Assembly (NCBI GenBank): GCA_905182735.1
Contig: CAJJCT010000008.1
Location: 1-64,000, forward strand
Length of the DNA stretch: 64,000 nucleotides
Direction: 5' to 3'
Source of the DNA: Candidatus Marivariicella framensis
GTDB taxonomy: Bacteria; Bacteroidota; Bacteroidia; Flavobacteriales; Flavobacteriaceae
Positions 57,967 to 63,675 of this stretch are shown piece by piece. Made by a program: the position numbers and the translations under genes. The notes beneath the pieces were generated by a model. The model did not search any database. It saw only the letters and a program-made list of their open reading frames with translations, and was not told where the DNA came from. The stretch's first letter is position 1. Each line of letters begins with the position of its first letter.

Positions 57967-58803
57967 ATGAAAAAAAATCTATTATTGTTATTATTTGTTC
58001 CATTTTACAATTTGGCTCAAGTAGTCTCTCCTCAACCGAGTCCTTCTGCTACAATTAATCAAACTGTTGGTCTTACTGATATTAAAATTGAATATTCAAG
58101 ACCTGCAATGCGCGGTAGAGAAGTTATGGGTAATTTAGTTCCATATGGAGAATTATGGAGAACTGGTGCAAATGCAAACACAAAAATTAGTTTTTCAGAT
58201 CCAGTAACAATTGCTGGTATTGAAATACCTGAAGGAACATATGCTTTATTTACTCGTCCTGGAAAAGAAATGTGGGAAGTATTTTTTTATAAGAAAAGTG
58301 ATAATTGGGGACTTGTGAAGGATTGGGATGCAACTCAAATTGCTGTAGTATCTGAGTCAAAAGCAACTAAAACAAATGAAATTATAGGATCTTTTACTAT
58401 TCAACTGGAAAATTTAACAAATAATAATGCAGAGCTTACTATTTCATGGGAAAATACAAAGGTTACGACTTTAATAGAGGTTCCTACTGTTAAAAAAACA
58501 ATGGCGTCTATAGATAAAGCATTGTCAAATAATCCTAAGGCTTCAGATTATTACAGTTCTGCAGTATATTTTTTAAATAGCGAATTAGACCTTAAACAAG
58601 CTAAAAATTGGATGGAAACTGCAATTGATAAAGGAAATAATAAATACTTTCATTTAAGACAGTATTCATTAATTTTAGCAGGTTTAGGTGAGAATGAGGC
58701 TGCTATTGAAGCTGCTAAAAAATCATATGAACTAGCTGAAATAGCTGGGAATAATGATTATTTAAAAATGAATAAAGAATCTATTGAGCAATGGTCAAAA
58801 TAG
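57967..58803 (+). CDS. DUF2911 domain exported protein
   Basis: 278 residues; signal peptide LLLLLFVPFYNLAQ. DUF2911 at about 20-185: SPSATINQTVGLTDIKIEYSRPAMRGR, VPYGELWRTGANANT and EIPEGTYALFTRPG are its marks. Residues about 190-275 resemble TPR-like helices (YYSSAVYFLNSELDLKQAKNW, AIEAAKKSYELAEIAGN). The family is common in marine Bacteroidota and has no assigned function. It is a monocistronic unit ending in a strong terminator that overlaps the next gene. Confidence 0.9.
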   Translation: MKKNLLLLLFVPFYNLAQVVSPQPSPSATINQTVGLTDIKIEYSRPAMRGREVMGNLVPYGELWRTGANANTKISFSDPVTIAGIEIPEGTYALFTRPGKEMWEVFFYKKSDNWGLVKDWDATQIAVVSESKATKTNEIIGSFTIQLENLTNNNAELTISWENTKVTTLIEVPTVKKTMASIDKALSNNPKASDYYSSAVYFLNSELDLKQAKNWMETAIDKGNNKYFHLRQYSLILAGLGENEAAIEAAKKSYELAEIAGNNDYLKMNKESIEQWSK

Positions 58804-58820
58804 ATGAAACTTATATTCTT

Positions 58821-58849
58821 AAACCTCGCTATTTAGCGAGGTTTTTTTT
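58821..58849 (+). terminator. Terminator of DUF2911 gene, overlapping the end of the symporter gene
   Basis: A 10-base-pair stem, AAACCTCGCT with AGCGAGGTTT and a 4-base loop, followed by T. It lies 18 bases after the DUF2911 stop. The stop codon of the leftward symporter gene (58829-58831) lies inside the hairpin, so the same bases encode the symporter C-terminus. Confidence 0.88.
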
Positions 58850-60508
58850 ACTTATATTTTGAATTTCTTGTAATAGATATGCAATTGTTATAGTTAAAAC
58901 TGCTCCTATTACATTTAGCCACAGGTAACCAAATTCCTCAAATAAGTAACAATAGATTATTAAGAACTCTGAAATTATAGCAGCAAAAAACACTGGATTA
59001 CTATCTATCTTTTTAAAGAATATTGCAATTAAAAAAATGCCTAAAATTGTTCCGTAAAAAATTGATCCTATAATGTTTACTAGTTGAATTAAGTTCTCAA
59101 AAAGATTACCATTATATGCGAAAACTATAGCTATTATCCCCCAAATTAAGGTGAATAATTTTGCCATATTAACATAGTGATTTTCTGACAGGTTAGGCGT
59201 GTGTCTTTTGTATAAGTCAATTAAGGTTGTAGCTGAAAGAGCATTCAGTTCAGAAGCTGTTGAACTCATAGCTGCTGCAAATATAACAGCTAACAGTAGT
59301 CCTATTATTCCATTTGGTAAATGATTGATAATGAACGTTATAAAAACATAATCTTTATCATTAATTGAAGCATCTTTATTGTTTTTAAGAATTAAATTAT
59401 TTACTTTTTCTTTTTGTTTTTTGTTATCTAATTCAAGTTTTAAGTAATCTTTTTTTAACTGATCATTTTCAAAAAACATTGGATTTAGTAAAAGCTCATG
59501 CTTTTTATCTTGGGTAAGTTCATATTCCTTTTCAACTTGAAAATAATCGTTTGAAAAATTTGATTTTTTTATTTCTATTATATTTTTTGAATTAAAATGA
59601 ATAGGAGGAGTTTCATACTGATAAAACACAAACACTATTACGCCCAGTAAAAGAATAAAAAATTGAAATGGAACTTTAAGAAACCCATTCATAATCAACC
59701 CCATCTGACTCTCCTTTAAAGACTTTCCAGAAAGATATCGCTGAACTTGACTTTGATCTGTTCCAAAATATGAAAGTGCAAGGAAAAGACCTCCTGTGAT
59801 TCCACTCCAGAATGTATATCTACTATTAAGGTCTAGGCTAAAATCTAAAATATTTAATTTCTCATTATAACTAGCCAATTTAAGAGCCTTAGAAAAATCA
59901 ATATTTTCAGGCATTTTAATAAGTGCTATCCAAAATGCAGATATTAAACCAATGATAATTATAATCATTTGTTGCTTTTGAGTCACATTTACAGCATTAG
60001 TACCTCCAATTAAAGTGTAAAAGATTACTATAAAGCCAATTAATACTACCAAAATCTTTAAATCCCACCCAAGTGCTACACTTAAAATTATAGCAGGAGC
60101 ATATATGGTAATACCAGCCGCTAAGCCTCGTTGAATTAAAAACAAAATAGCAGTTAAAGTTCTAGTTTTTAAGTCAAACCTGCTTTCTAAAAACTCGTAA
60201 GCTGTATAAACATTTAATTTTTGATATACAGGTAAAAAAAACAGGCATATAATTAGCATTGCAAATGGAAGTCCAAAATAAAATTGAACAAAGCCCATTC
60301 CTTCATTATAAGCTTGTCCAGGTGTAGACAAAAAGGTAATTGCACTTGCTTGAGTAGCCATTACTGAAAGACCTACAGTCCACCACCTAGCTTTATTATC
60401 ACCTTTTATATATGATTTAATAGATGAATGATCTTGATTTTTCCAAACACCATAAAAAGCTATAAAAAGTAGAGTTCCAATTAAAAGAAACCAATCAATA
60501 GTTAGCAT
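58829..60508 (-). CDS. Sodium:solute symporter (SSS family)
   Basis: 559 residues with about 13 helices. Family features: the unwound helix region VMATQASAITFLSTPGQAYNEG near the N-terminus, FVQFYFGLPFA, FYTLIGGTNAVNVTQKQQ, SYFGTDQSQVQRYLSGKS and the late FAAAMSSTASELNALSATT. A hydrophilic loop of about 90 residues (about 295-385) is inserted between helices, as in other Bacteroidota members. The ATG shares one base with the stop of a 31-codon ORF upstream (TAATG), so translation is coupled. The solute is unknown; the upstream PIG-L deacetylase gene hints at amino sugars. Confidence 0.9.
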   Translation of the reverse strand: MLTIDWFLLIGTLLFIAFYGVWKNQDHSSIKSYIKGDNKARWWTVGLSVMATQASAITFLSTPGQAYNEGMGFVQFYFGLPFAMLIICLFFLPVYQKLNVYTAYEFLESRFDLKTRTLTAILFLIQRGLAAGITIYAPAIILSVALGWDLKILVVLIGFIVIFYTLIGGTNAVNVTQKQQMIIIIIGLISAFWIALIKMPENIDFSKALKLASYNEKLNILDFSLDLNSRYTFWSGITGGLFLALSYFGTDQSQVQRYLSGKSLKESQMGLIMNGFLKVPFQFFILLLGVIVFVFYQYETPPIHFNSKNIIEIKKSNFSNDYFQVEKEYELTQDKKHELLLNPMFFENDQLKKDYLKLELDNKKQKEKVNNLILKNNKDASINDKDYVFITFIINHLPNGIIGLLLAVIFAAAMSSTASELNALSATTLIDLYKRHTPNLSENHYVNMAKLFTLIWGIIAIVFAYNGNLFENLIQLVNIIGSIFYGTILGIFLIAIFFKKIDSNPVFFAAIISEFLIIYCYLFEEFGYLWLNVIGAVLTITIAYLLQEIQNISKKNLAK

Positions 60509-60603
60509 TAGCTATAATTTTTCATTATTCCATAAAATATAAACCAGTAAAAAATATTTACTCCAATTAGCAAGGCATACGTTTGATTTTTCATCTTATT
60601 CAT
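60508..60603 (-). CDS. 31-residue predicted single-span membrane peptide
   Basis: A micro-ORF starting MNKMKNQTYALLIGV and ending FYGIMKNYS. Residues about 8-27 are a hydrophobic helix with aromatic residues (Y9, F18, Y19, W20, F21, F23). Basic residues flank the N-terminal side, so one membrane span is predicted. It overlaps the PIG-L gene end by 8 bases (ATGAATAA) and the symporter start by 1 base (TAATG), the packing of a translated gene. A similar small gene occurs at this place in some flavobacteria as I recall. Role unknown; a small symporter subunit is one option. Confidence 0.7.
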   Translation of the reverse strand: MNKMKNQTYALLIGVNIFYWFIFYGIMKNYS

Positions 60604-63067
60604 GTCCATAGTTTATTAGGTTAACAAATAGTCTGTAAGCTCCTGGAACTCCTGCAGGTAATTCTCTGAAAAAACTAAGACCAGTATAAATTATTTTACC
60701 CTTACCGTATGATGCAACTAGTAAGCTTCCTCTTTTTTTTGATTCATTAATATCATTCATTTCTAAAAGAGGTTCGAAATTTTCATCCCAATAGTTTGGA
60801 AAATATAAACCTCGTTCCTGCACCCAATATTTGAAATCATTATTTTCAATTTTATTAGGGTAATTAAATATTGAATGAGATTTATTTAAAAAATGAATTT
60901 TTGAATTTTCATCTGTAACCCTATCTCTTGAAATTTTTAATTTATAGGGAGTAATATTATTTGTTTTTAATCCTCTACTGGTATTATATTGAATAACTAA
61001 AGTTCCTCCATTTTTTACATAATCCCATAAAATCTCGTTTTTAAAACTTAATTCGTCAATAACATTAAATGCTCTAATACCTATTACTATTGTTTTAAAA
61101 CTTAAAAGATTCTCTAAAATTATTTTAGAGGGATCAATATCAACTACCTCTATTCCAATATTTTCTAATGTTTCAGGTATTTTATCTCCTACACCCATTA
61201 AATACCCAATTTTATTAATATTATTTTTCAAATCAATTCCAAAAACTTTAGCAAAACTTGGCTTTACAATGAATTGTTTTGGAATATGGGGATAATCAAT
61301 AGTTATTAGCTGATTAGAGTATTCATTGTTGCTTGAATTAATAATTGGCTTTATAATACCTGAGTTGTTTTTATTGCTAGAATAAACTTTGAATAAATAA
61401 TTTTTTTGTTGATTCTTTTTTGAAATATCAAACAAAAATTGATTCGGCTTGGTTATCCAACCTTCTGGTAATTCTATACTTAGAGTGCCCTTAACATTAT
61501 TTTCATGTGCAGTTATTGAAACAGGTATTTGTCTTGGTTTTGAATCAGGAAATATATAAACAGGTTGATCAAGTTTAACAGTGACTTTTGGCACAATAGT
61601 GTAGGGCGTTATCACCTCACCTTGAACAGGATCTGTAATCCTGTTATTTGCATCAACAATCATATTTAATTCTGTACCATTTATTTCTAGCTTTATTTCA
61701 GCTTTTATGGCTATTGGGGTTTCAGGCAAACCCTTTAGCTCTTGATTGTCTACTTGATACATTCCTAGCGTGCCTTCTTTAGTTAGCCAGTAAGGTGATG
61801 AAATTTGATCACCTGTAGTTATATCTAATTTTTTTTCAAACAAATTATTATTAATTATTGTAGAATTAATTATAAAATCAGTATTTTTTAATTTCAGATT
61901 TTTAATTAAAATACTTGTATTTGATGGGTTAATAATTTTCAGATTAAATATTTCTTTGCTTTTTGGAGTTCCTAATATATTTTCACTATTTAATTGAATA
62001 TTTAATCCCAAACAAAGAGATATTATATTTTTTACTTCATTTAACTTTAAGCTTTTCCAATATCCAATTTCTAAACTTTCAATATTTTTATAAATATTAA
62101 TTAAGTCAGAGATGTTTTTTTCAGGAACTTTAAAGTTAAAGTCATTAAGAAGTCTATCAATTAGGCTTTCAATTTTATCTCCACCTTTTAATCTGTTCCA
62201 ACTAATATCAATTCCTTCAAAAGGATTATTTGATGAAACAGACTTTCCTTTTATTAGCTCCATATAACCCCATTGAGGACCTCCAGGTTTTGGTGATCTT
62301 CCAAATCCTTGAGATTTGTGTTGACTTCTACTTTTAGCAGCTATTTGATCATAGGTCAATCCAATCAGAGGATTAAATTCACTTTGATCAAATTTTAAAA
62401 AATTATCTTTTTCAACTTTCATAAAATTTTCCTTACTTCCATAAAAAAACCAGGAAGTGTTAAAAAATAATTTTTCTGGATTCCAAACTGAAAGTGATTC
62501 TAATTGTTCTGGAAAATAATTAACATTTGATGACAGATCAAAAGCTTGGTAGCTTAAAATTGCTGATGACGTATGATGTCCATGAGTTGTGCCAGGAGTT
62601 CTATGATCAAATCGATTTATAATTATATCAGGTTGTATTGTTCTTATATGTTTAACAATTTGACTTAATAATTCATTTTTATCCCAAATATTTAATGTTT
62701 CATCTGGATGCTTGGAGAAGCCAAAGTCATTAGCAGTTGTAAATAACTGATTAGCACCATCAATTTTTCTCGCAGCCAAAAGTTCTTGAGTTCTAATTAA
62801 ACCTAACGCATCTGTTAATTCAGTCCCTATCCTGTTTTGACCTCCGTCACCTCTTGTTAGCGAAAGATAAGTTGTTTCAATATGATATTTATTTGAAAAA
62901 TAAGAAATAAGACTTGTGTTTTCATCGTCTGGATGAGCTCCTATATGTAGTAAACTTCCCAAAACATTTAATTTTTGAATCTTTGAATATATATCTGAAC
63001 TATTCTGTGATCTTGCCTGAAAGGCGAATAGTAGAAAAAATAATACTAGCGTAAAAAAGTATTTCAT
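60596..63067 (-). CDS. Exported PIG-L family deacetylase, large form
   Basis: 823 residues with a signal peptide (FFTLVLFFLLFAFQARSQ). The catalytic domain (about 35-300) has H45-P-D-D-E49 in IGAHPDDE and H162/H164/H165 in TTHGHHTSS, the metal-binding set of N-acetyl-sugar deacetylases (MshB/BshB class). A long beta-rich middle part (about 350-600) and a C-terminal region with GMQ-type GATase-like features (GYLMGVGDKIPETLENIGIEV in part, VIQYNTSRG) follow. It likely de-N-acetylates a periplasmic sugar. Between maf and the 31-residue ORF, in one leftward operon. Confidence 0.9.
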   Translation of the reverse strand: MKYFFTLVLFFLLFAFQARSQNSSDIYSKIQKLNVLGSLLHIGAHPDDENTSLISYFSNKYHIETTYLSLTRGDGGQNRIGTELTDALGLIRTQELLAARKIDGANQLFTTANDFGFSKHPDETLNIWDKNELLSQIVKHIRTIQPDIIINRFDHRTPGTTHGHHTSSAILSYQAFDLSSNVNYFPEQLESLSVWNPEKLFFNTSWFFYGSKENFMKVEKDNFLKFDQSEFNPLIGLTYDQIAAKSRSQHKSQGFGRSPKPGGPQWGYMELIKGKSVSSNNPFEGIDISWNRLKGGDKIESLIDRLLNDFNFKVPEKNISDLINIYKNIESLEIGYWKSLKLNEVKNIISLCLGLNIQLNSENILGTPKSKEIFNLKIINPSNTSILIKNLKLKNTDFIINSTIINNNLFEKKLDITTGDQISSPYWLTKEGTLGMYQVDNQELKGLPETPIAIKAEIKLEINGTELNMIVDANNRITDPVQGEVITPYTIVPKVTVKLDQPVYIFPDSKPRQIPVSITAHENNVKGTLSIELPEGWITKPNQFLFDISKKNQQKNYLFKVYSSNKNNSGIIKPIINSSNNEYSNQLITIDYPHIPKQFIVKPSFAKVFGIDLKNNINKIGYLMGVGDKIPETLENIGIEVVDIDPSKIILENLLSFKTIVIGIRAFNVIDELSFKNEILWDYVKNGGTLVIQYNTSRGLKTNNITPYKLKISRDRVTDENSKIHFLNKSHSIFNYPNKIENNDFKYWVQERGLYFPNYWDENFEPLLEMNDINESKKRGSLLVASYGKGKIIYTGLSFFRELPAGVPGAYRLFVNLINYGHE

Positions 63068-63090: not shown

Positions 63091-63675
63091 TTAGCGATCT
63101 ATAAGTTTCTTTATTTCATTTAAAACTTCAGTTACCGGAAGGCCAACGACATTTGTATAACTGCCGTTTATCTTTGAAATCCCCAATAAACCAATTGATT
63201 CTTGTATTGCATATGAACCTGCTTTGTCAAGGGGGGCGGCGTTTAATAAGTAATCATCAATTATGGAGTTATTTAGTTTTTCAAATGTAACTTCAGTTGT
63301 TACATCAATACAATAATAATTGTTAAATGTTAAAAACCCTACTGCTGTAATAACTTTATGAGTTTTTCCGGACAATGACTTTAGCATTTGTTTTGCATCA
63401 TCTAAAGATTTTGGTTTACCAAGACATTTATTTTCATGCCACACAATTGTATCAGCCGAAATTACTATTTGATTTTTATTTATTATTTTTTTAAATGGAT
63501 TAGATTTTAAACCAGCAATATATCTCGGTATATCCGCTTCTTTTAGGTTTGACGGATAGGTTTCTTCTACATCAAAAGTTTTAATTTTAAATGGAAACTT
63601 AAATAAATTAAAAAAATCTTTTCTTCTGGGAGAATTAGATGCTAATATGATTTCTTTCTTAAAGTTTTCAATCAT
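63091..63675 (-). CDS. maf: Maf family nucleotide pyrophosphatase
   Basis: 194-residue house-cleaning enzyme that hydrolyses dTTP/UTP or modified nucleotides. Features: LASNSPRRKDFF (phosphate loop with S-PRR), ISADTIVWHENKCLGKP, MLKSLSGKTHKVITAVG and AGSYAIQESIGLLGISKINGSYTNVVGLP. All Lys/Arg/Asp residues expected at the active site are present. It starts 4 bases after the kdsC-like stop codon and 23 bases before the PIG-L start, so it probably shares their transcript. Confidence 0.95.
   Translation of the reverse strand: MIENFKKEIILASNSPRRKDFFNLFKFPFKIKTFDVEETYPSNLKEADIPRYIAGLKSNPFKKIINKNQIVISADTIVWHENKCLGKPKSLDDAKQMLKSLSGKTHKVITAVGFLTFNNYYCIDVTTEVTFEKLNNSIIDDYLLNAAPLDKAGSYAIQESIGLLGISKINGSYTNVVGLPVTEVLNEIKKLIDR

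Follow-up and report, generated by a model that had tools for sequence, protein, structure and literature searches.

Bacterial SSS/SLC5 transporters are usually depicted as machines of a single chain. Small membrane proteins, such as those of the DUF4212/TIGR03647 family, YjcH (DUF485), and YhdT (DUF997), are encoded beside SSS symporters; these are two-helix proteins and longer than the Bacteroidota peptide considered here. Among the closest described systems is CbrX of the Pseudomonas CbrXA transceptor, which the excerpted text of a 2026 bioRxiv preprint (PMC13022988) presents as a short membrane peptide that is encoded upstream of, overlaps with, and is translationally coupled to an SSS/SLC5 gene with 13 TM. 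According to the same excerpts, CbrX is a two-helix hairpin of ~58 aa with both ends inside, its partner is an SSS-STAC-histidine kinase, and it is dispensable for growth on histidine, while the cryo-EM structure of CbrA places it on TM3 and TM8, beneath the helical periplasmic TM6/7 loop. A second precedent is MAP17 (PDZK1IP1), the single-TM auxiliary subunit of human SGLT2/SGLT1, likewise of SLC5/SSS; in the excerpts of two papers (PMC10803289, PMC9616851) its helix contact lies in the extracellular half, at TM13, and it is suggested to aid folding, stability, and localisation. One-helix proteins bound to a large membrane protein also include AcrZ, MgtS, and MgtU, which are 28–49 aa in length (PMC10710835, in excerpt), as well as KdpF and CydX (PMC10903887, in excerpt).

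The current study concerns a window of 64,000 nucleotides (contig CAJJCT010000008.1, positions 1 to 64,000) from a draft genome of Candidatus Marivariicella framensis (1.9 Mb, 86% complete), a member of the Flavobacteriaceae. On its minus strand, three genes overlap in series: a PIG-L (LmbE-like) protein of 823 aa (60596..63067), a small ORF (60508..60609), and a sodium:solute symporter (SSF, PF00474) of 559 aa (58829..60508). Read directly, the small ORF has an outer ATG (60609), which would yield a 33 aa one-helix membrane peptide, MDMNKMKNQTYALLIGVNIFYWFIFYGIMKNYS, and an inner ATG at 60603, which would yield 31 aa; both frames end with the TAA at 60510–60508. The PIG-L gene is overlapped at its 3' end by 14 nt (60596..60609), or by 8 nt from the inner start, and the peptide stop and symporter start have one common base in a TAATG (60506..60510). 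An earlier note had described the 31-residue version with its 8 nt overlap and TAATG junction, and both are confirmed by direct reading. The ORF and the TAATG are present in all seven genus members; the outer Met is kept in four, and a Met occupies the inner place in three (the window, L156, and L159). Across the surrounding 10 kb, as many as 64 ORFs reach 25 aa or more, so the size of this ORF is by itself no evidence; it is conservation that carries it beyond chance, and the comparative sequence data indicate that it is almost certainly a real conserved protein. It has no Pfam match, and the best it attains in NCBIfam is a mere E 0.014, for a transporter that belongs to a different family.

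The symporter, which is the proposed partner of the peptide, exceeds the cut-offs for both PF00474 and TIGR00813, and its AF2 model (pLDDT 94.1) finds SiaT, SGLT2, SMCT1, and NIS as best fold matches. Judging from the AF2 helices, it has 13 TM segments (TM0–TM12) with the N-terminus out, and the last helix is TM12 (530–558). TM13 is absent, and the idea of an extra TM13-like helix, taken from SGLT2–MAP17, was abandoned because the symporter ends at TM12. Residues 299–396 (59321–59614, minus strand) form a large, confidently predicted helical insertion between TM7 and TM8, periplasmic by the topology used. In the PIG-L protein, PF02585 at residues 40–168 is the sole Pfam region above cut-off, the C-terminal ~650 of 823 residues are without Pfam assignment, and no NCBIfam equivalog cut-off is reached; its N-terminus resembles a Sec signal by eye. 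Further upstream, on the same strand as the symporter, is a Maf family nucleotide pyrophosphatase (63091..63675). A DUF2911 gene (57967–58803, plus strand) is convergent to the symporter, as it also is in 52 of the 80 loci of named relatives within the fetched flanks. The terminator-like hairpin between these two genes (58821..58844) is a consensus match only, with 1 found versus 1.7 expected by shuffling.

The earlier note had proposed a search of flavobacteria for short ORFs between PIG-L and SSS genes. Such ORFs were found and are conserved. Among the 30 best orthologous loci of the family, 29 have an ATG-started ORF of 28–51 aa immediately 5' of the symporter with a common pattern (Y, hydrophobic helix, N, Y, FY, M), and the thirtieth (L016, genome G249) has the ORF with a non-ATG start. 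Profile A1, built from 28 of these ORFs, was searched against 299 genomes of the family to which the window belongs, taken to be Flavobacteriaceae from its named relatives; an orthologue of the symporter was called at best E ≤1.5e-76 and the peptide at E ≤0.01. The peptide was matched in 258 of the 265 genomes encoding a symporter orthologue and in none of the 34 genomes without one. Among the seven exceptions, three carry a diverged ORF at the expected position (G033, G218, and G259), one is cut by a contig end (G298), and three truly lack the peptide (G064 and G280, from one genus, and G166), their PIG-L stop adjoining the symporter start. For the 96 genomes among the listed matches for both peptide and symporter, the peptide match lies 2–24 nt before the symporter in 94; in the other two, the pair is either split over contigs or 376 nt apart. 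The ORF is also found at all 80 loci of named relatives, which partly come from the same genomes as the main family set.

The distribution of the peptide is confirmed to be far wider in Bacteroidota than the earlier note proposed, as it also sits before the symporter in further families and in other classes. A phylum sample of 296 genomes contained the symporter in 114 (E ≤1e-70), and 17 of the 20 non-family places with profile matches have a symporter immediately downstream. Three weak phylum matches (L124–L126, E 0.0078 to 0.014) were discarded as chance because no symporter adjoins them. A hydrophobicity criterion applied to 69 symporter loci from outside the family identifies a small TM ORF ahead of the symporter in ~60 of them, typically of the pattern PP..SW..WY.LVL.......LFY.FT..F. 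An iterated profile, built on the searched symporter loci themselves, recovers the peptide at 250 of 270 unique symporter loci (179/184 in the family and 71/86 outside it). Of 9277 decoys (antisense, upstream, and inner ORFs), a single one matched at E<0.01, which turned out to be a displaced real copy in G087, and 44 matched at E<1. In the genome of the window, five of the eight other SSS genes were checked and none has such an ORF. A peptide–symporter fusion would have argued for partnership, but a scan of 50 symporters whose frame continues upstream for 15 residues or more gave no match (best E 2.8).

Several additional arrangements were encountered outside the family. In family f37 (L214, L217, L219, L220, and L226), a strongly diverged small TM ORF that is rejected by the profile occupies the same place, e.g. 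...LIRVFAAQGIIMLILWLLHAIYN, and is perhaps a replaced or far-diverged subunit. Weak peptide-like matches in G334 (C61:71347, E 0.05) and G395 (C5:123645, E 0.02) lie ~15 kb from the peptide-less symporters of genus g281 and may be relocated copies or chance. Nine non-family loci (L177, L179, L181, L183, L186, L194, L200, L201, and L208) have a second small ORF immediately upstream of the one-helix peptide, Gly-rich and with two hydrophobic stretches, at about -380 to -108 nt relative to the symporter match (the L208 frame is open from -544). These second ORFs are only partially alike (L177 finds L186 at 2e-9, and L183, L179, and L200 at 8e-4 to 0.009) and possibly encode another subunit.

The earlier note had named a dN/dS near 1 or frequent frameshifts as grounds for rejecting the peptide. 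Instead, the pooled pN/pS over 11 independent close pairs, including the odd pair L096–L018, is 0.21 (0.128 for the symporter), with 100.8 synonymous differences per 216.7 sites and 89.2 non-synonymous differences per 914.3 (Fisher p ~3e-32, sites taken as independent), which leaves the peptide unrefuted. Of the 250 peptides, 240 start with ATG, 222 are 31–45 aa long, and 247 are 26–54 aa long. They have one hydrophobic stretch, and the pattern of the helix is kept over classes. The N-flank is more basic than the C-flank (+1.67 vs +0.40), and in 169 of 179 family peptides position 29 is followed by just three or four further residues, both of which fit an N-in, C-out orientation. This is probably the topology of the peptide.

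Existing family collections offer little resemblance to the peptide. Members of profile A1 gave scattered weak matches (best E 0.014 in NCBIfam and 0.032 in Pfam), while no more than 4 of 69 members of profile A3 fell on any one family (best E 0.0014, Pfam DUF2976; 0.0028, NCBIfam TIGR03745). The known SSS small-subunit families in Pfam/NCBIfam yielded no match above curated cut-off, with cut-offs read for the first member alone, and DUF4212/TIGR03647, DUF485, and DUF997 are absent from the 13 weakly matching NCBIfam families and from the 25 of 37 Pfam families listed. Profile A3 found nothing significant among PDB sequences, there was no sequence match to MAP17 among five PDB chains up to E 10, and none of the papers listed from the open-access PMC literature describes the Bacteroidota peptide in the text examined.

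One of the key features linking the peptide with the symporter is the correlated evolution of peptide residue 29 with EL3, a periplasmic loop (residues 199–232, helix 205–214; 59813..59914, minus strand) placed between TM5 and TM6 by our reading of the AF2 helices. Mean-field DCA was performed on 250 paired peptide–symporter rows, which contain two genomes twice (L156/L010 and L157/L011), and its strongest inter-protein pairs (peptide–symporter) are 29–220 (z 22.6), 32–204, and 29–209. With the 180 family rows only, 29–220 reaches z 25.5 and exceeds all intra-symporter pairs at a separation of at least 6. EL3, TM2, and TM7 together hold 5 of the top 10 DCA pairs (expected 1.6, p 0.013) and 11 of the top 30 (expected 4.8, p 0.005); among the top 30 pairs of the family rows, however, EL4 likewise accounts for 8 (expected 5.1). 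Agreement in depth for the top 10 pairs has p 0.22 with all rows and 0.012 with family rows only. Since kinship among sequences inflates DCA scores, Pagel-type correlated-evolution models were applied to 318 columns using a tree built without symporter columns 195–232. For residue 29, position 220 ranks first (LR 34.5, p 6e-7) and 209 second (26.3), and 9 of the top 20 columns lie in EL3 199–230, which contributes 25 of the 318 tested columns (p 2.5e-6). Control residues 28 and 22 each place 2 of 20 there, with no EL3 enrichment. Position 204 is high in DCA, yet ranks 305 of 318 in the tree test. Residue 22 pairs with 272, 273, 277, and 279 of TM7 (residues 264–298; 59615..59719, minus strand), and the tree-aware test returns 279, 273, and 277 as well as 418. 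TM2 (residues 80–98; 60215..60271, minus strand) shows weaker inter-protein pairs (89, 92, and 97). By branch-corrected co-change, 29–220 reaches only p 5e-4 and ranks 8 of 14487. The top pairs of plain co-change, Y21–L469/I461, were rejected, as their columns dominate intra-symporter pairs too, and all plain co-change signals, these included, shrink after branch-rate correction.

Natural losses of the peptide provide a second view of EL3. Because an intact symporter is retained in these lineages, the peptide is evidently not essential everywhere. An Asp at symporter position 213 was first noticed by eye in EL3 of the peptide-less symporters. Among 319 symporters with repeats collapsed, an acid at 213 is found in 19 of 29 peptide-less proteins versus 0 of 290 peptide bearers, with no acid in the remaining 10 peptide-less proteins. 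This count scores L339, a displaced copy, as peptide present and leaves out L297 (contig end), L096 (the odd close pair with L018), and eight rows with a diverged or borderline TM ORF (L212, L214, L217, L219, L220, L226, L489, and L503); no acid at 213 is known from any of the ten (G/A among those listed). In the first data set of 250 bearers, 235 have Gly213 and none an acid, while the symporter of the window has Ser. The peptide-less g64, G166, G452, and f24 have Asp/Glu at 213, G562 has Ala, and G420, g281, and f37 have Gly. Position 213 is the sole column of 545 in which g64, G166, G452, and f24, four groups chosen after the acid was noticed, share a residue class rare in bearers; they amount to three events, since g64 and g166 share one clade. 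In the tree-aware test of peptide loss, 213 ranks first of 329 columns (LR 27.7, p 1.4e-5) and 214 second, and acid versus rest at 213 gives LR 33.4 (p 1e-6). By parsimony, the peptide was lost seven times and apparently regained once. The acid was gained at only three points, twice on the very branch where the peptide was lost and once within a clade of peptide loss; it disappeared twice, in one case on the branch of the peptide regain.

The same association is found among relatives of three loss genomes, where acidic residues occur in 0 of 59 bearers versus 16 of 24 peptide-less symporters, or 0 of 42 versus 12 of 17 once the earlier genomes are removed. Within a single genus, G645 and G646 have the peptide and Ala213, whereas G166, G644, and G647 lack the peptide and have Asp; also without the peptide are G643 and G649–G653, which have Glu213. 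In family f24, six bearers have Gly213 and seven peptide-less members are acidic, the peptide-less non-acidic members being G684 (Gly) and G687 (Arg). In lineages that have lost the peptide, the acid at 213 thus has the look of a compensation for a standing contact.

Based upon these features, we consider it likely that the peptide is a putative one-helix subunit of the symporter positioned at EL3/TM2/TM7, which would stabilise the transporter or set the balance among its conformations, and whose contact an acid at 213 would often replace after loss. It would be a single-pass inner-membrane subunit of the next-encoded symporter, having its N-terminus inside and its C-terminus in the periplasm, and coupled translation would deliver it just ahead of its partner. 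The peptide helix would pack on TM7 and TM2, and its C-terminal end, from residue 29 onward, would reach EL3, between TM5 and TM6, to exert the stabilising or balancing effect. Where the peptide has been lost, an acid at 213 would often substitute for the EL3 contact, perhaps by replacing the C-terminal carboxylate of the peptide. The parts of this reading differ in strength. The peptide is very probably a functional partner of the symporter and its predicted physical docking at EL3/TM7/TM2 is probable, while a standing structural or stabilising role is only somewhat favored over conditional regulation. The wider generalisation, that one-helix SSS subunits form a class spanning the phylum and cap EL3 with their free C-terminus, through a carboxylate contact made in trans and rebuilt in cis by Asp/Glu213 in lineages without the peptide, is offered tentatively, and we lean slightly against it.

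It is conceivable that the peptide is a real symporter-linked protein and that the EL3/TM7 contact is a phylogenetic artefact, in which case it would dock elsewhere or bind without stability. The acid was gained only three times, mutual information with APC ranks other pairs at the top and omits 29–220 from its top inter-protein list, and DCA on the 70 non-family rows (Meff 47) does not replicate 29–220. With residue 29 being mostly Thr in so few rows, this last set is uninformative for that residue. Given that the tree-aware tests employed a tree free of EL3, that control residues 28 and 22 were negative, and that the site coincides with that of CbrX, which was read only after the contact analysis, we regard an artefact as unlikely. 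Alternatively, the peptide could be a regulator rather than a structural subunit, binding conditionally to inhibit the symporter or control its turnover, much as MgtS, MgtR, and MgtU act on other transporters. Small proteins with such roles exist (PMC10710835, in excerpt) and loss of the peptide is tolerated. However, at 250 of 270 loci the peptide is tied to the gene of the symporter, mostly within 4 nt, a spacing that hardly allows it to be expressed under its own control, and the acid at 213 resembles compensation for a contact that is always present; we consider a regulator rather unlikely.

The earlier note had left two roles side by side, a small accessory subunit of the transporter or a coupling peptide. 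The former is supported, because the peptide tracks the symporter rather than PIG-L and its residue 29 coevolves with EL3, whereas a mere coupling or spacer ORF of irrelevant amino-acid sequence is disfavored by amino acid conservation and coevolution. The periplasmic amino-sugar module that the note also suggested stays a conjecture, as the PIG-L protein reaches no NCBIfam equivalog cut-off and the matches of the symporter do not assign it a substrate; the note is therefore supported in part. In most loci, stop and start do overlap or are separated by no more than a few bases (219 of 250 peptide stops lie at -3 to +4 relative to the symporter start, and 23 of 250 loci have TAATG-type geometry). 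Nevertheless, the peptide is also retained at gaps of about 40–120 nt, its losses leave PIG-L and the symporter directly adjacent, and the low pN/pS, the helix pattern kept over classes, and the correlated evolution with EL3 all argue that its sequence matters, making a pure spacer highly improbable. As for the PIG-L protein or another neighbour being the true partner, PIG-L is adjacent in 207 of 270 loci and is nearly always missing along with the symporter; only 2 of the 34 symporter-less family genomes hold PIG-L, as fragments at contig ends, so PIG-L cannot separate the partners inside the family. However, 50 of the 62 loci where no neighbouring PIG-L was detected still have the peptide, PIG-L persists in many of the lineages that have lost the peptide, and it looks periplasmic by eye. 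It is an upstream neighbour and not a constant partner, and we give this last reading barely any credence.

A subunit of the symporter therefore remains our preferred reading, under which an unnamed protein of 30–50 aa would accompany one orthologous symporter across Bacteroidota, and heterologous studies of such symporters may consequently miss a part. The loss lineages pose the mechanistic question of whether symporter G213D/E makes the peptide unnecessary; if it does replace the peptide, both the docking site and the job of the peptide become directly testable. The comparison with other small subunits is instructive as well. Like AcrZ, MgtS, MgtU, KdpF, and CydX, the peptide would be a one-helix companion of a large membrane protein, but their partners are different and no sequence relation to them was found in Pfam/NCBIfam. 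Like MAP17, it is a single helix beside an SSS transporter, although the symporter here is without TM13, the helix to which MAP17 binds. The parallels to CbrX are the closest. As with CbrX, the Bacteroidota peptide is encoded immediately upstream of an SSS gene, which it overlaps or abuts (250 of 270 loci), and, after renumbering the 13 helices counted from 1, the TM3/TM8/TM6–7 loop site of CbrX corresponds to TM2/TM7/EL3, to which coevolution points here, and the two appear to use the same site. Unlike CbrX, the peptide has one helix, probably exposes its C-terminus outside, and has a stand-alone symporter as its partner; because CbrX is a two-helix hairpin, the peptide is not a CbrX member by helix number. 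If the wider generalisation is correct, this peptide class and CbrX would together mark a single accessory site conserved among bacterial SLC5-type transporters.
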